From Thermomicrobiales bacterium (lineage in GTDB: Bacteria; Chloroflexota; Chloroflexia; Thermomicrobiales; CFX8): 64,000 nt of DNA. A program made the translations under genes and the position numbers. Below are positions 5,457 through 57,430 of this stretch, in pieces (the first letter of the stretch is position 1; the number at the start of each line of letters is the position of its first letter). The stretch is from contig JAMLIA010000003.1 of the NCBI GenBank assembly GCA_023954495.1, forward strand, positions 1 through 64,000, written 5' to 3'. The notes beneath the pieces were generated by a model that was not told where the DNA came from, made no database searches, and saw nothing but the letters and a program-made list of their open reading frames with translations.

Positions 5457-5523
5457 CGTGCGTGAGCGGGAACGCTGGTTCGTTGACACATGCGAACCGA
5501 TCTAACAACAGGAGATCTTCACT

Positions 5524-23999: not shown

Positions 24000-26201
24000 T
24001 TATTCCTGGTCGACCGTGAGATTGGCGAGACTCCCCATCAACCGCTTTTCCCCATGTCGCTTGAACTGGACCGTGATTTCCTGATCGTCGTTGCGATCCG
24101 CGACCTGCACCACGACACGTCCCCGAACTTCTGCGTGGAATACGCGCTGCCCCGCCGATACCCGGGTATAGACCGGCGCTGCGGCGGGCTGAGCAACGAG
24201 CAACTTTCGCGTCGCGGGTCGCGTCGGTTCGTGCGATCGACTGCCTGCCGCCAGTGTACTCGCTGGAATTGCAGTCAGAAATGACGATGGCTCAGATGGC
24301 TCTGTACCGCCGAACCGGGAACGGCGAAACGCGTGCGTCAGATATAAGCGCTCTTTCGCCCGTGTGATTCCGACGTAGAGCAGTCTGCGCTCTTCTTCGA
24401 GCATGGCCGGGTTCTCGGTGATCGAGCGTTGGTGCGGGATCAAACCTTCTTCAACGCCGGTGAGGAAGACGACCGGAAACTCCAGTCCCTTCACTGCATG
24501 GAGCGTGATGAGTGTGACTTTCTCGTGCGCATCCTCGATCGTATCGGCATCACTCACTAGTGCGACTTCGGACAGGAACGTTGTCAATCGTGTCTCAGGT
24601 GGCTCATCATCGAACCGCTCAATGTTCGAGCGCAATTGCTGGAGGTTCTCCCAGCGCGACATCGCTTCTTCGTCGCCGGACTCGAAATAGCCGAGATAGC
24701 CGGTATCTTCCAGTGCCCGGTCGAATAGCTCGCTGAGGAGCGCGGTCGGTTCGAGATCGCGCAGGACGTCGAGGCGCTCACGCATTGCCGTCAGGAGTTT
24801 TGTCGCGCGCGACGAGAGCGGCGGTCCGTCGGCACTGCCGATGGCATCAAGCGCTGCGCCCGTGCCGGCAGCTCGCGCCTGGCTCCACTGCTCGATATCG
24901 GACAGCGTCTTCGCGCCGATGCCGGCTCCGACAGGGAACTCGGCGACCACGCGCTGAAATGCGGCGTAATCATCCGGGTTTGAAATCAGGCGCAGGAGTG
25001 CGAGTGCGTCTTTGATCTCCTTGCGCTCGTAGAAGCGCGTGCCACCAATGAGCTGATAGGGGATCGTGGCGCGGATCATCGCCTCTTCGATCGGTCGGCT
25101 CTGCCAGTTGGTTCGGTACAGCACGGCGATGTCGCTGCCGCGGTACTTGCCTTCGGTGGTCAGCCGCTGGATCTCTTCGACGACGAACCGCGCTTCTTGC
25201 TGTTCGTCGAAACACTCTCTGAGTGTAATCTTCTCGCCCGCTTTGTTTGAAGTCCGCAGCTTCCGGTCGATCCGCTGGACGTTCTCACGAATCACTGCGT
25301 CAGCAGCGGTGAGGATGTCCGGTGTCGAACGATAGTTCTCTTCAAGATGGATCTCGATAGCGTCGGGAAAATCTTCTTTGAACGTCAGGATGTTGCGGAT
25401 ATCCGCAGCACGCCAACCGTAAATCGACTGATCCGGGTCGCCGACGACGCAGAGATTGCGATGCTCGGCGGCCAGCTCCTTCACCAGCAAATACTGGATG
25501 CGGTTAGTGTCCTGATATTCGTCGACCAGGACATAGTGGTAGCGCTGGCGGAGCGCGCTGAGCGCTTCCGGCGATTCGTGCAGGAGTCGTAGCGTCATCG
25601 ACAACAAATCATCGAAGTCGAGCGCTTTGCGGCGCAGCAATGTCTGCTGATAAATCGGGTAGATCCGGGCCACTACCTCTTCAAAATAGCTCTCAACCGA
25701 GTCGGTGAACTCTGTTGGGCCGACGTTGTGGCTCTTTGAACGCGAGATCGTGCTGAGTACGGCCCGAGGCGCGAAATGCTTTGGGCTGATATCCAGTTGA
25801 TCCATCGCTGACTTGACCGCGTTCATCTGGTCGCCATCATCGTAGATGACGAACCGCGGATCGATTCCGATGTGTTGACCGTATTGTCTGAGCACGCGAG
25901 CGCAGAACCCGTGGAACGTGCCGAGCATGACCCAGCGCGCCCGATCTCCAACCAGCGCTTCGACACGCTCGCGCATCTCTCGTGCGGCCTTGTTGGTGAA
26001 TGTGACGGCCAGGATATTCCACGGTGCGACGCCGAGGTCCTGGATGAGGTGGGCGATGCGGACAGTGAGGACGCGAGTCTTGCCACTGCCGGGACCTGCA
26101 ACGATGAGAACGGGGCCGTCTGTCGTCATCACGGAAGCGCGTTGTTCGGGGTTCAGGCCATCCAGCAACGTGGATCCCTGTGACTCGTGGATACTCTGCA
26201 T
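24000..26201 (-). CDS. pcrA: UvrD/PcrA-family SF1A DNA helicase
   Basis: A 733-residue 3'-5' helicase of repair and replication restart. Motifs: Q motif LNPEQRASV, Walker A AGPGSGKT (35-42), Ia TFTNKAAREMRERV, motif II VDEYQDTN, III VVGDPDQSIYGWRAAD, IV FLEENYRST-like (HLEENYRSTPDIL), V TLHAVKGLEFPVVFLTGVEEGLIPHQRS, VI EERRLLYVGITRAKERLYLT. The last 60 residues (AGQRVFHAEVRGRVVVQVADRND) form the PcrA C-terminal Tudor-like RNA polymerase-binding module. ATG 26201. Confidence 0.95.
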   Translation of the reverse strand: MQSIHESQGSTLLDGLNPEQRASVMTTDGPVLIVAGPGSGKTRVLTVRIAHLIQDLGVAPWNILAVTFTNKAAREMRERVEALVGDRARWVMLGTFHGFCARVLRQYGQHIGIDPRFVIYDDGDQMNAVKSAMDQLDISPKHFAPRAVLSTISRSKSHNVGPTEFTDSVESYFEEVVARIYPIYQQTLLRRKALDFDDLLSMTLRLLHESPEALSALRQRYHYVLVDEYQDTNRIQYLLVKELAAEHRNLCVVGDPDQSIYGWRAADIRNILTFKEDFPDAIEIHLEENYRSTPDILTAADAVIRENVQRIDRKLRTSNKAGEKITLRECFDEQQEARFVVEEIQRLTTEGKYRGSDIAVLYRTNWQSRPIEEAMIRATIPYQLIGGTRFYERKEIKDALALLRLISNPDDYAAFQRVVAEFPVGAGIGAKTLSDIEQWSQARAAGTGAALDAIGSADGPPLSSRATKLLTAMRERLDVLRDLEPTALLSELFDRALEDTGYLGYFESGDEEAMSRWENLQQLRSNIERFDDEPPETRLTTFLSEVALVSDADTIEDAHEKVTLITLHAVKGLEFPVVFLTGVEEGLIPHQRSITENPAMLEEERRLLYVGITRAKERLYLTHAFRRSRFGGTEPSEPSSFLTAIPASTLAAGSRSHEPTRPATRKLLVAQPAAAPVYTRVSAGQRVFHAEVRGRVVVQVADRNDDQEITVQFKRHGEKRLMGSLANLTVDQE

Positions 26202-46878: not shown

Positions 46879-48455
46879 CCAAGCAAGGTTCGCCGTGTAT
46901 CCACATGGTGACTCCGCTTCCACCGCTTCCGACCGGCATCGCTCAGTACAGTCACGATCTGCTCAGTGGTATCGACGGTCGCTGGAAAATTCTTGTAACT
47001 GGAGAGTCCGGTTCGTCGCCGTCGCCGTCATGGAAGACCATTGACGTTGCCAATGCTCGGTCGTCGCGGAGGACAGCGAACACTCCCTCGATCTATCAGA
47101 TCGGGAATAGCGGCTTCCACAAGATCGCGATGCAACAGGCGCTAACCAAACCGGGGATCGCGGTGCTGCACGACACCGTGCTGCACCACGGTCGCTTGTC
47201 GATGATGCTCGGCAAGCGCGGCGGAAAGCGCTATCGGACGCTGCTACACGACTTGTACGGCGCTGACGGCGATCGTGTTGCGCACGACGTGGCGCTCGGT
47301 CGTCAGATTGACCTGAGCGCCTATCCGCTGATCGAAGACATCTCTGCCGCGTCCCGGCTGATCGTTGTGCATTCGGAGATTGCGCGGGAACGGGTGTTGG
47401 CGGTTGCGCCGGAGGCGACGGTCCGAATAGTTCCAATGGGCATCCCGCTTCCTGCGCTCGTGGATCAGCGGGCCGCACGGGACGCTCTCGGCATACCGCA
47501 GTCTGCGTTCGTCATCGCATCAATCACGCATGTTAATCCGAACAAACGATTGCCGGTTGTGCTGCGTGCTGTGCGAATGCTGCGCGAGCGGATTCCTGAG
47601 TTTCGGCTGATCGTGGCTGGAACGCAGGCGCCGGGAATTGATCTGTTGCGGCAGGCTCGCGCGTTCGGCGTGGAAGATCGTGTGACGGTACTGGGCTATG
47701 TGACGGATGATGGGGCCCGGTTGCTGGCTCGGACAGCGGATGCCTGCGTCAACCTGCGCTATCCCAGCGCAGGAGAGACATCGGCGAGCCTGCTCCGCCT
47801 GCTTGGCGCTGGTCGGCCGGTGCTGATCACGAACGATCGATCCAACGCCGAATACCCGCGCGACGCGGTCCTGCCGGTTGACGTTGGACCGTGGGAGGCT
47901 GAGCTGGTTGCCGAGTATCTGGAGTTGCTCCATCGCGACTCCGATCTGCGGCTGGCCGTTGGTGAAGCAGCTCGAGCGTTCGTCACGCGCGCGCATGGCG
48001 TGGAGCACATGGCTGCTGGCTATCGCGATGTGGTTGCGGAAGCCTACGGAATTGATCTGCCGTCGGTCGATGACATTCGGTGCGCTGAATCGCAGCCAGT
48101 TGTGCAGCGAAAGATGTCGGTTGACCTGGCAGCGACAACTGAGCCATCGGTGATAGACAATGCAGTGGGTGCCGCATTGTCCGGACTGGGCCTCGGACAC
48201 CACGATGATACGATCGCGTCAGTGAGCCGCTCGGTTCTGGAATTGGGTCTGCATCGCTTGCGACACAGACGAGAGGACGAACACCTCGTGACCGACGAAA
48301 CACCGATCCGCAAGGAGTTGCTCGATATCGTGGCCTGCCCGGCCTGTAAGACGAAGGTCCGGCTGGAAGGCGAAGAATTGATCTGCGACTCATGCGGTCG
48401 TCGATATCCCATCGAAGATGGCATTCCAATCATGCTGGTTGACGCCGCGAAATAG
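46875..48455 (+). CDS. GT4-family glycosyltransferase fused to a Trm112-like zinc ribbon
   Basis: A 526-residue protein. Residues 1-395 are a GT-B glycosyltransferase (PLPPLPTGIAQYSHDL; SITHVNPNKRLPVVLRAVRML; VLGYVTDDGARLLARTADACVNLRYPSAGETSASLLRLLGAGRPVLIT). After a linker, residues about 478-526 are a YcaR/Trm112-like domain (KELLDIVACPACKTKVRL, LICDSCGRRYPIEDGIPIML) with four cysteines for zinc. These domains are normally separate genes. An in-frame GTG at 48288 overlaps a TGA in another frame, so a separate Trm112 gene after an unseen indel is an alternative reading. Confidence 0.85.
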   Translation: MTKQGSPCIHMVTPLPPLPTGIAQYSHDLLSGIDGRWKILVTGESGSSPSPSWKTIDVANARSSRRTANTPSIYQIGNSGFHKIAMQQALTKPGIAVLHDTVLHHGRLSMMLGKRGGKRYRTLLHDLYGADGDRVAHDVALGRQIDLSAYPLIEDISAASRLIVVHSEIARERVLAVAPEATVRIVPMGIPLPALVDQRAARDALGIPQSAFVIASITHVNPNKRLPVVLRAVRMLRERIPEFRLIVAGTQAPGIDLLRQARAFGVEDRVTVLGYVTDDGARLLARTADACVNLRYPSAGETSASLLRLLGAGRPVLITNDRSNAEYPRDAVLPVDVGPWEAELVAEYLELLHRDSDLRLAVGEAARAFVTRAHGVEHMAAGYRDVVAEAYGIDLPSVDDIRCAESQPVVQRKMSVDLAATTEPSVIDNAVGAALSGLGLGHHDDTIASVSRSVLELGLHRLRHRREDEHLVTDETPIRKELLDIVACPACKTKVRLEGEELICDSCGRRYPIEDGIPIMLVDAAK

Positions 48456-48467
48456 AACGTATGTTCG
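48454..48467. promoter_or_regulatory. LexA (SOS) box upstream of ruvB
   Basis: AGAACGTATGTTCG matches the Gram-positive consensus core GAACRNRYGTTC exactly (GAAC-GTAT-GTTC, 48455-48466). It covers the -35 position of the ruvB promoter, so bound repressor would block RNA polymerase. Confidence 0.7.
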
Positions 48468-52061: not shown

Positions 52062-52736
52062 ATGAAGCTGTGGCTCGTTCGGCATGGTGAAACCGCTTCA
52101 AATGCGGGTGGAGTGTTTCAGGGGCATATCGATATTGCATTGAACGAGGTCGGTGAGGCACAGGCAAAGAGCGTTGGCCGTCATCTGGCTGATGTCGATT
52201 TCGACGCGATCTTCGCGAGCGATCTCCAGCGTGCCGCGCGTACAGCGCTACTCATCGCCGGCGAGCGGCCGGTCACGCTCGATGCCGATCTGCGCGAGAT
52301 GAACTACGGGATATTGCAGGGCGTTGCCTATGCAGACGCAGCCGACGTTCTCCGTCCTCACGGTCTCGATGCGGCCTGGATCAATGGGGATGTCCAACGC
52401 GGACGCCACGTCTTACCAGAGGGTGAAAGCCTGCGGCAATTCCGCTACCGAGCGGCCCGTTTCGTCGATCGGATCGATCGCGACTACAGCGAGGTGGCAG
52501 ATGCCAACATCCTCATCGTTGGCCACGGCGGTCTCCTGGCGATACTGACCACCGTGTTGCTCGGACTCCCCGCGAAGACGAGAAACAATTTCCGATTCGC
52601 CAACTGCGGTGTCACCGTTCTGACGCGAACGCGGGCAGTGACAACGCTTGATCGACATAACATCATTCTCTGGAATGACGGTCAGCCGTTTACCGACCGC
52701 GGGCTACCCGGTCAACTGAGTCAACGAGGCGAGTGA
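52062..52736 (+). CDS. Histidine phosphatase (phosphoglycerate mutase-like)
   Basis: A 224-residue branch-1 histidine phosphatase. The catalytic His is in LVRHGETASNAGGVFQGHIDIALNEVGEAQA. The second Arg/Glu and His sites are FASDLQRAARTA, LREMNYGILQG and IVGHGGLLAILTT. The FQGHID...LN pattern suits CobC, GpmB-like or broad-specificity phosphatases; true cofactor-dependent mutase activity is not indicated. ATG 52062. The 3' end overlaps the convergent aminotransferase by 47 bp. Confidence 0.9.
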   Translation: MKLWLVRHGETASNAGGVFQGHIDIALNEVGEAQAKSVGRHLADVDFDAIFASDLQRAARTALLIAGERPVTLDADLREMNYGILQGVAYADAADVLRPHGLDAAWINGDVQRGRHVLPEGESLRQFRYRAARFVDRIDRDYSEVADANILIVGHGGLLAILTTVLLGLPAKTRNNFRFANCGVTVLTRTRAVTTLDRHNIILWNDGQPFTDRGLPGQLSQRGE

Positions 52737-53901
52737 TGTCCTCGGTGTCGGTGAAGTAGGTACACGAAACGCGCACAGCGCTGGGGCGCTCGACGCGGCG
52801 CTGGGCGATGCGATCGTTATCCCAGAGCACGCGACTGACTTCTTCGCCGGCCAGGTCGGCGACAGTGAATGTCACGATCCCCGAAGAATCCTGCCAATCC
52901 TGCGGCGTTATCACCTGAACGCCCGGTATTTCCGCGAGTGCATCCTTCATCTGCGCTGAGATGGCGGCGACGTGGGAGAAGATCGCTTGCCAGCCGAGGT
53001 CAGCCTGGTACTCGATGGCGTCCGCCAAGGCTTCGTAGATGTGCCAGGCGCGCGTGCCGAACTCAAATCGCGACGCGTCGCCGGCAAATGCAAGTCGGGG
53101 TGGAGGATCAACCTGGTAGTGGTCGCGAGACCATGCAGGAGCGACAGCGCCATCACCGAAGTAGGCGGGCGGTACGAGATCGAGCGATCGGGGGCTGAAC
53201 CAGGCGAACCCGGTGCCCTTTGGACCGGCGAGCCACTTGTGGCCGTTGCCAATCACGAAGTCGGCGTTCAGCGTTGGAATGTCAACCGTGAATTGTCCGA
53301 CTGACTGCGAGGCGTCGATCAGGATCGTGACATCCGGTCCGACGATCTCGCGGATGCGCTCGACCGGCACTCGGATGCCGGTCTCGCAGGAGACCTGGCT
53401 CATGGCAACTACGCGTGTGTTAGCGGTAAGTCCGCTGCGGATATTGGCGATGAGTTCGTCCGGGTCAGGGCTCAATGGCACGAAACGCAGCTTGCCGCCG
53501 GCGCGCTCACAGGCGGCAAGCCAGGGGAATATCATGGCCGGGTGCTCTTCTGTCGAAGTCAGCACCTCCTCGCCGGACTGCAATGGGAAGCGTGCTGCGA
53601 TCCAGTTGATGCCGTCTGTGGCGTTCCGATTCAACGCGAGATCAGACGGCGCAACATTCAGCAGGTTCGCCAGCGTGCGACGCGCACGCTCGTAGCCTTC
53701 GACAGCGCGTGCTTGACCGGTGTGGCCGAAACGCTCGTACGCGGCGACGTACTCCAGGTGCCTGGCGAGGACAGGTTCGGCCATCACGCCGACAGTTCCG
53801 GTGTTGAGATAGGTCCACTCGCTCAGGATCTGCAGCGCCTGACGAACCTTGCTCAGGTCGTAGTCGGGAATCGGAGTTGCCACGTCCATCTGATCCGCCA
53901 C
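52690..53901 (-). CDS. Class V aminotransferase (cysteine desulfurase/isopenicillin-N epimerase-like)
   Basis: A 403-residue fold-type I PLP enzyme. YLNTGTVGVMAEPVL at the N terminus, NATDGINWIAARFPLQSGEEVLTSTEEHPAM, MSQVSCETGIRVPVERI, LIDASQSVGQFTVDIPTLNADFVIGNGHKWLAGPKGTGFAWF with the PLP lysine in GHKWL. A mobile catalytic cysteine loop is not obvious, so a SufS/NifS role is less likely than an EgtE- or epimerase-like lyase. ATG 53901. Confidence 0.88.
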   Translation of the reverse strand: MADQMDVATPIPDYDLSKVRQALQILSEWTYLNTGTVGVMAEPVLARHLEYVAAYERFGHTGQARAVEGYERARRTLANLLNVAPSDLALNRNATDGINWIAARFPLQSGEEVLTSTEEHPAMIFPWLAACERAGGKLRFVPLSPDPDELIANIRSGLTANTRVVAMSQVSCETGIRVPVERIREIVGPDVTILIDASQSVGQFTVDIPTLNADFVIGNGHKWLAGPKGTGFAWFSPRSLDLVPPAYFGDGAVAPAWSRDHYQVDPPPRLAFAGDASRFEFGTRAWHIYEALADAIEYQADLGWQAIFSHVAAISAQMKDALAEIPGVQVITPQDWQDSSGIVTFTVADLAGEEVSRVLWDNDRIAQRRVERPSAVRVSCTYFTDTEDITRLVDSVDRVARGR

Positions 53902-54029: not shown

Positions 54030-54242
54030 TCAGGCGACGAGGGCGTCGTACAGCCGCTCGTAGTCACTCAGGAGCTTCAGCCAGTGTCGCTCCCAATGCG
54101 ACACATCCTTACCGCTCACCAGAGCTTCATCGATCATGCGATAGCCCTCTTCGAGGCGGGTCTCGATCATCTGGAGCTCTTCGCGGAGTGATGCGATGTG
54201 ATCAGTAACATCGATCGTCAGAGATGGCATTGCCGACATCAT
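54030..54242 (-). CDS. Small helical protein co-transcribed with the Rad52-like gene
   Basis: A 70-residue acidic, probably helical-hairpin protein (VTDHIASLREELQMIETRLEEGYRMIDEAL...HWERHWLKLLSDYERLYDALVA). Tandem ATGs at 54242/54239 follow GGAGAAAGGAT. No family recognised. It lies 29 nt after the Rad52-like stop under the same promoter and SOS-type box, so it may act with that protein. Confidence 0.75.
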   Translation of the reverse strand: MMSAMPSLTIDVTDHIASLREELQMIETRLEEGYRMIDEALVSGKDVSHWERHWLKLLSDYERLYDALVA

Positions 54243-54271
54243 CAGATCCTTTCTCCACCGGTCGCTGACGA

Positions 54272-54871
54272 TCAGGACGCCAGGCTTGCGGCGCCGCGTT
54301 CAGCCTGAATCTGCTCGATGAGCTGCGACATGTCGCGTCGACTCAACTCGCTGAGGCTGCTGCCGAACGTCTGCTGAGCTCGTTCTTCGATTCCATCGCT
54401 CGTTAGCCCGACTTCTCGAGCAATCGAACGCAGATACTTCATCTGACGATCAGTCGCATCCTGACGCGTATTCTGCGCGGGTCGCGGGCCGTCGCGCCGC
54501 GCCTGGAGTGCGACAGGTGCGTCAACAATGCGCTGCTGCTCAGCACCAAACTCGAAATCCCAGCAGAACTGTGTGCCGAACCCGAGTGCCGCCAATGCTC
54601 GACCGAGCGCCTTCGTCTCGGCCTTCTCCAAGTAATCGCCGAAGTCGTCAATGCCTTCGCTGCCCCAGCCTGTTGCTGACGCTCCGCTGGGGAGGGTGAC
54701 TCGAGCGCGGAAGACTGCCATGCTGTTGTGATGTTCGACGAGCTCGGTTTCGACTTGTGCCTCTGGATACTGCGAGCGCATCCAGACGAGACGCCACTTC
54801 ACTTCCAGATAATCTCGGCCACTCACCTTCGTGAGATAGCGGGTTGGATCGAATGCGGACTGCTCGCTCAC
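54272..54871 (-). CDS. Rad52/DdrA-like single-strand annealing protein (candidate)
   Basis: A 199-residue protein. The N-terminal 110 residues, with YLEVKWRLVWMRSQYPEAQVETELV, VFRARVTLPSGASATGWGSEG and EKAETKALGRALAALGFGTQF, match the pattern of the Rad52 superfamily (beta-sheet then the conserved KAxTxAxxRALxxLG helix). A linker precedes a C-terminal helical module (ATDRQMKYLRSIAREVGL...ELSRRDMSQLIEQIQAE), often attached to such proteins. Family members anneal complementary ssDNA or protect ends (DdrA). It has a near-consensus promoter and a LexA-type box, and diverges from dnaN-recF. No phage genes are nearby. Confidence 0.75.
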   Translation of the reverse strand: MSEQSAFDPTRYLTKVSGRDYLEVKWRLVWMRSQYPEAQVETELVEHHNSMAVFRARVTLPSGASATGWGSEGIDDFGDYLEKAETKALGRALAALGFGTQFCWDFEFGAEQQRIVDAPVALQARRDGPRPAQNTRQDATDRQMKYLRSIAREVGLTSDGIEERAQQTFGSSLSELSRRDMSQLIEQIQAERGAASLAS

Positions 54872-54909: not shown

Positions 54910-54925
54910 TAGAACGGATGTTCTA
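54910..54925. promoter_or_regulatory. LexA (SOS) box over the Rad52-like gene start site
   Basis: TAGAACGGATGTTCTA, a 6-bp inverted repeat with 4-bp spacer. The core GAAC-GGAT-GTTC matches GAACRNRYGTTC exactly. It spans the expected transcription start, 6 bp downstream of the -10. Confidence 0.75.
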
Positions 54926-54930
54926 CATGC

Positions 54931-54959
54931 ATTCTAATCATATCGTGCCCACTTGTCAA
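54931..54959 (-). promoter_or_regulatory. Strong promoter of the Rad52-like operon
   Basis: Read leftward: TTGACA (54959-54954), 17-bp spacer, TAGAAT (54936-54931). The best -35 in the window, consistent with a tightly repressed gene. Confidence 0.75.
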
Positions 54960-55066: not shown

Positions 55067-56209
55067 GTGCGGGTAACGTGCTCACAGGGAAGTCTCCATC
55101 GTGCGTTGTCGGTCGCCGGACGCGCCGTCGCCGCTAAGAGCACGCTGCCGGCGCTCGGGAACTACTTGCTTGAAGCTGCTGACGGGGCGCTGACGATTTC
55201 GGCAACCAACCTGGAGTTGGCGATCACCTGCCGGGTCGAGGCCGATGTTCTTGAGCCGGGGCGAATCACGGTTCAGGCCCGGGTGCTGAGCGAGTTCGTC
55301 GCCAGCCTTGACGATGAGCCTGTTGAGCTGAGTCAGGAACAGGGACCGTTGACAGTGACCGTGCGACAGCGAGCCACGCAAGCGCACGTCCGCGGCACCG
55401 ATCCTGAAGACTTCCCGGTGATTGCGCGAAACGTCGATGGTGGGGCGACTCTTGTTGTCGAGCCCGCGATCCTCCGCGACGCGATCTCTCGCGTCGTCTT
55501 TGCCGCTGCGAGCGACGACAGTCGTCCCGTGCTTGCTGGCGTGCAACTAACTGCTCGCGACAGCAAGCTCTCACTTGCGGCCGCTGATGGGTTCCGCATG
55601 TCCGTCCAGAAGCTGAACCTCGATCGCCCGGCCGATCAGGATCTGTCAATCATTGTTCCAGCGCGGTCGTTTCAGGAAGTCTCACGTGTTCTCGCCGATG
55701 GCGATGATGTCGTTGTCCTCACCGTCACGCCGAACCAGAGCCAGCTGCTTGTCTCGCTGGAGGATGTCTGGATCTCGACGCGCTTGATTGATGGTACGTT
55801 CCCGGATCTCTCGCAGATTATTCCGAAGGACTGGAACACGCGCACGACCGTCCAACGCGATGACCTGCTGGATGCGACCAGGCGGGCAACGATCTTCGCC
55901 CGCAGCAACAACGATGTCGTGAAGCTGGAAATCGAACCAGCAAACGAATCGCTCGATGTCGGGCGCGTCACTGTGACCGGGACAGCTGCCGATACCGGCG
56001 ATAACCGCGATGACATCGACGCTCAGGTTGAGGGCGAGGAAGTTCAGATCGCGTTCAATGGTCGGTACCTGAATGACGTGCTTTCTGTCCTGCGTGACGC
56101 GCGTGTGGCGTTTGAGCTGCAGGGACCGAACAGTGCCGGTGTGATCAAGGCTGCAGATTCTGAAGAATTCGTTCATGTCATCATGCCGATGGTCATTGGT
56201 GCCAGCTAG
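55067..56209 (+). CDS. dnaN: DNA polymerase III sliding clamp (beta subunit) DnaN
   Basis: A 380-residue clamp of three similar domains (about 1-125, 130-255, 256-380). Typical blocks: RALSVAGRAVAAKSTLPALGNYLLEAADGALTISATNLELAI, TLVVEPAILRDAISRVVFAAASDDSRPVLAGVQL, FPDLSQIIPKDWNTRTTVQRDDLLDATRRATIFAR, and the C-terminal HVIMPMVI that precedes the hydrophobic pocket. GTG 55067 with AAGGAG. dnaA is not upstream; the Rad52-like gene is. recF follows 12 bp later. Confidence 0.97.
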   Translation: MRVTCSQGSLHRALSVAGRAVAAKSTLPALGNYLLEAADGALTISATNLELAITCRVEADVLEPGRITVQARVLSEFVASLDDEPVELSQEQGPLTVTVRQRATQAHVRGTDPEDFPVIARNVDGGATLVVEPAILRDAISRVVFAAASDDSRPVLAGVQLTARDSKLSLAAADGFRMSVQKLNLDRPADQDLSIIVPARSFQEVSRVLADGDDVVVLTVTPNQSQLLVSLEDVWISTRLIDGTFPDLSQIIPKDWNTRTTVQRDDLLDATRRATIFARSNNDVVKLEIEPANESLDVGRVTVTGTAADTGDNRDDIDAQVEGEEVQIAFNGRYLNDVLSVLRDARVAFELQGPNSAGVIKAADSEEFVHVIMPMVIGAS

Positions 56210-56221
56210 CGACAGCAGCAG

Positions 56222-57430
56222 GTGACGAGTCCCGAACCAGTCATCCTCCGCAAGCTTGAGCTGGAACAATTTCGGGTCTACGAGTCGCTGAGTCTTGATG
56301 TACCGTCCGCCGGTCTTCGCATCATTGGTGCGAACGGTACCGGTAAGTCCTCACTCCTTGAAGCAATCGAGCTGGTGTCCACGACACGTCCGCGCCGCGG
56401 CGCGCTGGATAGTGACCTGATCGCGCACACCAGCGGCATAGATCTGGGTGTGCCCCCGTACGCTCGGGTTGACGCAACCGTGTGGCGGAGCGACACGGTT
56501 GTTGAAATCGGCGTGTTCATTCAGCGCTACGAACATCGGTCGGGAACGAAGAAGGTCCTGAAAGTTGCTGATCGGTCGCGGCGCGCTGGCGACGTCGTCG
56601 GGCTAGTCCCAACGGTCACGTTTTCGCCGGATGATCTGGATCTGGTTCTGGGCTCGCCGTCGGTGAGGCGACGCTTCCTTGACATCATGCTTTCGCAGAC
56701 TGACCGGCGCTACCTGGCGCACCTCTCGCGCTACGCCCGGATTTTGACGCAGCGAAACAGTCTCCTGAAGGACGTTGCCGCGTCAGGTGGGGATTCCTCG
56801 GATCAGTTTTCCTATTGGGACGAACAGATTATCGGCTTGGGGTCATACATTCTGGCGGCTCGGGTTCGGGCGCTAAGGATGATTGGCACGATGGCAACTG
56901 AGTCATTCGGCAATCTTACGCCCTTATCAGGTCAATTCAGCCTTTCCTACGCCTCGACGCTTGATGCAGTAGACGGATGGTGGGACTCAATAGCCGATGA
57001 TTCGAGCGACGTGATTGATGCTGCGCAACGGGTTGGCGTGCAATATGAGCGCCAATTGACGAAGGGGCGCGCCGCCGATATCGCGCGAGGATCGACGCTC
57101 ATCGGGCCACACCGGGACGATGTCCTGTTGCAGCTGAACGACCGAATACTGTCTCGATTTGGTTCACGTGGGCAGCAACGGCTGGCCGTGATGGCGCTGA
57201 AGATTGCCGAGCTCGCCCACGCGGAGTTTGCCACCGGATTCCGCCCGATTCTTCTTCTTGACGACATCCTCTCTGAACTCGACCCGCATCATCGCGACAC
57301 GCTCCTCGGGATCGTTGTGCGCGGTGGTCAGACGTTCATCACGGCGACGGAAGACTCGCTCGTGGATCGCGAAGAACTTCGTGACCTGGCCGCCGTTCGG
57401 CTCACTGGAGTCGGCCGTTTAGAGCGCTAG
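56222..57430 (+). CDS. recF: DNA replication and repair protein RecF
   Basis: A 402-residue SMC-like ATPase that loads RecA at gapped DNA. Walker A GANGTGKSS (about 39-47), LELEQFRVYESLSLDVPSAGLRII at the N terminus, signature-type GSRGQQRLAVMALKIAELAHAEFATG, Walker B PILLLDDILSELDPHHRDTLL. GTG 56222. It directly follows dnaN. Confidence 0.95.
   Translation: MTSPEPVILRKLELEQFRVYESLSLDVPSAGLRIIGANGTGKSSLLEAIELVSTTRPRRGALDSDLIAHTSGIDLGVPPYARVDATVWRSDTVVEIGVFIQRYEHRSGTKKVLKVADRSRRAGDVVGLVPTVTFSPDDLDLVLGSPSVRRRFLDIMLSQTDRRYLAHLSRYARILTQRNSLLKDVAASGGDSSDQFSYWDEQIIGLGSYILAARVRALRMIGTMATESFGNLTPLSGQFSLSYASTLDAVDGWWDSIADDSSDVIDAAQRVGVQYERQLTKGRAADIARGSTLIGPHRDDVLLQLNDRILSRFGSRGQQRLAVMALKIAELAHAEFATGFRPILLLDDILSELDPHHRDTLLGIVVRGGQTFITATEDSLVDREELRDLAAVRLTGVGRLER

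Follow-up and report, generated by a model that had tools for sequence, protein, structure and literature searches.

To our knowledge, the Rad52-type annealases of bacteria are known mostly from phages, and the chief example from a host is DdrA of Deinococcus. DdrA is controlled by the DdrO/RDRM system rather than by LexA. The small proteins of the LexA-controlled SOS response (DinI, YebG, YneA, SulA class) are likewise relevant to the locus described here. A ββ-α-βββ-α topology has been described as common to Rad52 and Redβ, and the C-terminal domain of Redβ is the binding site for lambda exonuclease and perhaps also for SSB (PMC9512822). DdrA belongs to Pfam family PF04098 (PMC10140301); it is damage-induced and binds the 3′ ends of single-stranded DNA, with no annealing in vitro (PMC515370).

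We analysed a stretch of 64,000 nucleotides from a Thermomicrobiales bacterium (contig JAMLIA010000003.1; hereafter the window), in which two adjacent genes, A and B, can be compared with each of these systems. A has the predicted core of the RAD52 rings and of the phage 80α annealase Sak. Unlike these, it has no match to PF04098, is chromosomal, is apparently controlled by LexA and has a Redβ-type C-terminal domain. This domain resembles the exonuclease-binding domain of lambda Redβ (PDB 6m9k), but the N-terminal domain of A is nearer to RAD52/Sak and no exonuclease gene was recognised beside A in the window. Like DdrA, A is a host-encoded Rad52-fold protein with a putative link to damage, but it lies outside the Pfam family of DdrA. 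PHROGs 27776 and 11717 (Thermus phage P23-45 and others) represent the same protein family as A, but the phage copies have neither the LexA box nor the dnaN locus. B is short and apparently LexA-controlled, as the small SOS proteins are, and compared with these from general knowledge it differs in being a helical hairpin without a significant library match. Annealases and LexA control are each already known; what would be new is their combination in a chromosomal Rad52-fold annealase with a Redβ-type C-terminal domain and a small SOS companion. We found no description of such a combination in the open-access papers searched, where the A family of Chloroflexota was not found described and Sphaerobacter and Rad52 were not found together.

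Organization of the locus

Gene A (199 aa; 54,272–54,871, minus strand) is an open reading frame with a GTG start, whose orthologues, AF2 model and Foldseek matches point to a Rad52-fold protein of the single-strand-annealing type. Gene B (70 aa; 54,030–54,242, minus strand), defined by its reading frame, a 22-member alignment and an AF2 model, encodes an acidic antiparallel helical hairpin. It follows A after 29 nt, so that the pair of reading frames is exactly as the original prediction described it. Both genes are divergent from dnaN (sliding clamp; 55,067–56,209, plus strand) and recF (56,222–57,430, plus strand), and Pfam confirmed this neighbourhood of core replication genes. A class-V aminotransferase gene, also assigned by Pfam, lies downstream of B (52,690–53,901, minus strand) and is kept there in part of the order. 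The usual host order is dnaN, A, in some cases B, and often the aminotransferase. The dnaN–recF setting is conserved in much of the order but is not universal: in Dehalococcoidia-type hosts, in one further family (f4), in one genus (g13) and in two genomes (G003 and G004), A is kept away from dnaN, mostly with a LexA box.

A LexA box at the A–B promoter

A sigma-70-type promoter with 11 of 12 consensus matches (TTGACA-17-TAGAAT; 54,931–54,959, minus strand) precedes A. The palindrome GAACGGATGTTC (GAAC-N4-GTTC; 54,912–54,923) lies 7 nt past the −10 element, i.e. over the predicted transcription start. The same SOS motif was found at other genes of this genome: a second box in the window, GAACGTATGTTC (48,455–48,466), which served as an internal control, lies 57 bp upstream of the ruvB reading frame (48,523); the genome's own lexA has a GAAC-N4-GTTC box 86 bp upstream of the HTH-coding region; and dinB (DNA polymerase IV) has one ∼30 bp upstream. 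Both ruvB and dinB were named by eye from their sequences. The window holds two more exact GAAC-N4-GTTC sites (5,470–5,481 and 25,327–25,338), with no gene matched to either.

Where full-length A was present in a host (56 loci), an exact GAAC-N4-GTTC was found within 120 nt upstream in 40 cases, compared to none of 64 viral loci (Fisher p = 4e-19, a value that is only indicative as the loci are related). The succession of TTGACA, a TATAAT-like element, the box and A recurs in dozens of hosts with unchanged geometry but different spacer bases, i.e. it forms a phylogenetic footprint. Five Thermomicrobium loci that failed the exact test have, in the corresponding place, the variant GCAC-N4-GTTC, which differs from the box by one mismatch. 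LexA was found in 40 of the 41 genomes of the order, and its loss as the cause of the box-less Thermomicrobium loci was ruled out, since LexA is present there together with the variant box. Judged by motif and promoter geometry, A–B is apparently under LexA (SOS) control, as had been claimed, and this control appears to be restricted to the host copies of A.

Conservation of A in the order

A first contig search with the single A protein gave no match; an alignment-based search found 158 relatives, the named ones being from Thermomicrobium, Sphaerobacter, Thermalbibacter and Dehalococcoidia-type Chloroflexota. The search with the A family found no match among plasmid sequences. When a paralogue, A′, is included, 40 of the 41 genomes have a homologue. 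Between two congeners, synonymous change is saturated while the proteins are kept, both for A (dN 0.19, pS 0.75) and for B (dN 0.28, pS 0.69); A is under purifying selection. The A–B pair is not a chance arrangement, given the homologues across the order, the difference in boxes between hosts and viruses and the retention of both proteins despite saturated synonymous change.

B is a predicted helical hairpin that occurs with and without A

The AF2 model of B (pLDDT 87.6) is a two-helix hairpin (H7–42 and H48–69). Residues R29, L30, G33, G44, W54, L57, L58 and Y61 are invariant in the alignment of 22 orthologues, and B is acidic in every one (mean net charge −6.4), which speaks against DNA binding. 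No significant sequence match to B was found in Pfam, NCBIfam, PHROGs or the PDB (where sequence searches with A, too, gave chance matches only), and Foldseek returned only generic coiled coils. The small helical companion is thus described by none of these libraries, as the original prediction suspected. B-like hairpin genes were also seen in other Chloroflexota families (L226, L229, L230 and L225), where they adjoin lysS/greA-type or bacteriochlorophyll genes and no LexA box was recognised at B.

Homologues of B are present in 28 of the 41 genomes. The two genes lie side by side in 21, are present but apart in two (G003 and G004, each gene with its own box) and are represented by the A C-terminal domain plus B in one (G006); A alone is found in 10 genomes, B alone in four (G020, G024, G030 and G038) and neither in three. 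In G003, G004, G020, G024 and G038 the promoter, box and B are found between dnaN and the aminotransferase with A missing. In G030, B is kept at the dnaN locus and the contig ends before the promoter. Wherever the promoter region of a lone B at the dnaN locus is on the contig, the LexA promoter is present. G006 (L042:3462–3857) has a LexA box, then an open reading frame for the C-terminal domain of A only, then B. The Rad52 domain is either missing from that reading frame or replaced. B is therefore not an obligate partner of A: across the 41 genomes the two genes do not show the strict co-occurrence and adjacency of such a pair, and both A and B are also found alone, with a LexA box or box variant of their own.

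These arrangements raise the possibility that B is an independent SOS effector (e.g. a small protein that brakes the damage response or modulates the clamp or replisome) and that A was inserted between B and an older LexA-box promoter. The five loci with promoter, box and B, the remnant in G006 and the B-like hairpins near unrelated genes would all fit such a history, which we regard as a serious contender that nonetheless falls short of being probable. The adjacency of A and B in 21 of the 41 genomes exceeds what chance insertion would be expected to produce, as do two further associations. In a family outside the order (f10, L231) a LexA box is found with a divergent annealase-like gene and B, and in a virus (L169) the genes for A, RepO, primase/helicase and B form one replication cluster, B having been found there by a profile search. 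The sequences point to B as an SOS product that keeps company with annealases but is separable from them.

The divergent annealase-like gene (L231:4387–5016 and L241:3930–4604) encodes FIIERQGKxFVLYAGLLEEAH...MAETRAKARALRDAVNIG and an A-like C-terminal domain; it has no Pfam match.

Predicted fold of A

A was modelled with AF2 from a 27-row alignment (pLDDT 84 overall and >90 in the core). The N-terminal domain (residues 1–100; 54,572–54,871, minus strand) has the order E-E-H-E-E-E-H over residues 14–95 (E14–16, E19–21, H24–34, E39–48, E51–59, E65–73 and H80–95). This structural check thus does give the ββ-α-βββ-α annealase topology, as the motif is defined in PMC9512822. The conserved motifs YLxVKWRxxW and EKAET...GRAL...G lie in this domain. 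A low-confidence linker leads to the three helices of the C-terminal domain (residues 141–198; 54,278–54,451, minus strand; pLDDT ∼95).

Searched against the PDB with Foldseek, A matched human RAD52 best (E 1.7e-4, probability 1.00), followed by phage 80α Sak (0.99–1.00) and yeast Mgm101 (0.99). In a library of viral models the matches were SAK3, Rad52/59/22 and ERF annealases (E 4e-7 to 4e-5). Whole-chain TM scores to RAD52 are low (query 0.21–0.34, target 0.26–0.42) because a disordered linker joins the two domains of A, and the assignment of the predicted fold rests on the N-terminal domain. The C-terminal domain matched chains D, E and F of 6m9k with a probability of 1.00 (target TM 0.76–0.79, rmsd 1.7–1.8 Å), so that the claimed helical module is borne out as a three-helix domain like that of RecT/Redβ, the likeness being structural only.

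Sequence profiles place A less readily. The window protein reached the cut-off of no Pfam or NCBIfam family, and none of 27 orthologues matched PF04098 (Rad52_Rad22) at E ≤ 1. The A family had no match to Pfam RecT, and the RecT-like phrog_2780 was matched by one member at E 0.16. In PHROGs the matches to named annealases are weak, and the families that match A at E 6.5e-21 (27776) and 1e-13 (11717) are both labelled ‘unknown function’. Pfam matches to Imm72, DUF3072 and GemA within the A family were set aside as weak or limited to some members; that to DUF3072, itself of unknown function, reaches 4e-6 in other members and is absent from the window protein. The first 110 residues of A are acidic on average (−4.8), which we counted against an annealase. 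Placement in the Rad52 superfamily therefore stands as regards the fold, with RAD52 and Sak closest, but not as regards the Pfam family that holds DdrA. On the models, A would be an annealase by fold with a Redβ-type docking domain.

As DdrA shows, the Rad52 fold alone does not prove annealing by A. A, which falls in the same fold class, might likewise guard 3′ single-stranded ends until RecA-dependent repair takes place, with the C-terminal domain and B only tuning stability. We consider this rather unlikely, as the closest structural and sequence relatives of A are phage annealases encoded beside replication genes, its C-terminal domain is of the Redβ type and the Pfam family of DdrA is unmatched.

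Probable exchange of A between phages and hosts

The A family has members in 67 IMG/VR viral contigs and also in Thermus phages P23-45/P74-26, where the gene is close to those for DnaB, a Holliday-junction resolvase and primase; the P23-45 protein P23p48 covers phrog_27776 end to end. The neighbours of the viral homologues that were examined include replication initiators, a helicase loader and a primase-helicase. In a tree of the N-terminal domain (110 columns, many forks not resolved) host and viral sequences interleave, and the viral copy L149 groups with the window protein with a support of 98. Phages and hosts have thus probably exchanged the gene, and the label ‘non-phage’ in the original prediction was too strong. 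In three further Thermus phage sequences (P23-45_stolb1–3; PQ158664–PQ158666), an A homologue annotated as ‘ssDNA binding protein’ matches in the N-terminal part only (query 3–109 or 3–143) and has a C-terminal part unlike that of P23-45.

The viral relatives and the interleaved tree would also be expected if A were a phage or prophage annealase captured so recently that it has no settled host function. This is improbable: a full-length orthologue is kept at a conserved locus (dnaN, A–B, aminotransferase) across several families, the LexA promoter is common to the host copies and absent from the viral ones, and the protein is under purifying selection. Comparison of the host loci across the order also found no phage genes around A; the flanks are dnaN–recF and the aminotransferase rather than phage replication or recombination genes. 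Most genomes of the order thus carry A as a host gene, from a family shared with phages and probably exchanged with them, and its ultimate origin may be viral.

A proposed SOS annealing branch beside RecFOR

RecO, the annealing mediator of RecFOR, also anneals single-stranded DNA, and the place of A beside recF could suggest a substitute, but this is very improbable and was rejected: RecO_C (PF02565) is above the cut-off in 40 of the 41 genomes, the source genome included, so A does not replace RecO and instead adds to RecFOR. RecA (PF00154) had no match in the source assembly (96% complete), but the idea that an annealase is there because RecA was lost was set aside: the congener has RecA, as do nearly all relatives, and the missing match is probably an assembly gap.

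We consider it likely that A–B is a chromosomal SOS operon that encodes a putative host annealase and a separable acidic hairpin SOS protein, and that it forms a branch beside RecFOR. DNA damage would activate RecA, LexA would leave the box over the A–B promoter, and A and B would be made; induction by damage would follow from the mechanism of LexA, given the box and promoter found here. As its fold suggests, A would oligomerise on single-stranded DNA and anneal strands, and its Redβ-like C-terminal domain would dock it on a partner, for which SSB or a resecting nuclease is the most likely candidate. As an acidic hairpin, B would be a protein–protein adaptor more readily than a DNA binder. To judge from the distribution of the genes, B would take part in the same single-strand metabolism but be a separable SOS product, not a subunit on which A depends. 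The operon would add a RecA-independent annealing and gap-repair branch alongside RecFOR and not replace it. The original idea of a host annealing/gap-repair module beside RecF and the clamp is upheld in its host locus, LexA control and predicted annealase fold; with RecO present, the module would supplement RecFOR and not take its place.

More speculatively, the locus could belong to an unrecognised LexA-controlled annealing branch in Thermomicrobiales-type Chloroflexota. B would then be the founding member of a new family of small SOS proteins whose role is to tune annealases or to link them to the clamp or replisome, and phages and hosts would have traded the annealase, the hosts adding SOS control. 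If a LexA-controlled annealase is indeed kept beside dnaN–recF across the order, single-strand annealing would belong to the ordinary SOS response of some bacteria, an idea that can be tested in Sphaerobacter and Thermomicrobium, both of which are in culture. Both B and the Redβ-like C-terminal domain, which is seen in phage and host copies alike, offer handles on the docking partners of bacterial annealases, and thermophilic annealases would be useful for recombineering.

The paralogous family A′

The paralogue A′ forms a second family in the order (C94 of the source genome, i.e. L049:1648–2466; also L050–L068), with an A-type N-terminal domain and a long proline-rich linker. Its C-terminal module, WTxFWxWAxxRGY...TPxExR, differs from that of A and is in no library. 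Several A′ genes of family f3 (L057, L128–L131 and L140) have an upstream GAAC-N4-GTTC followed by a −10-like TATACT.
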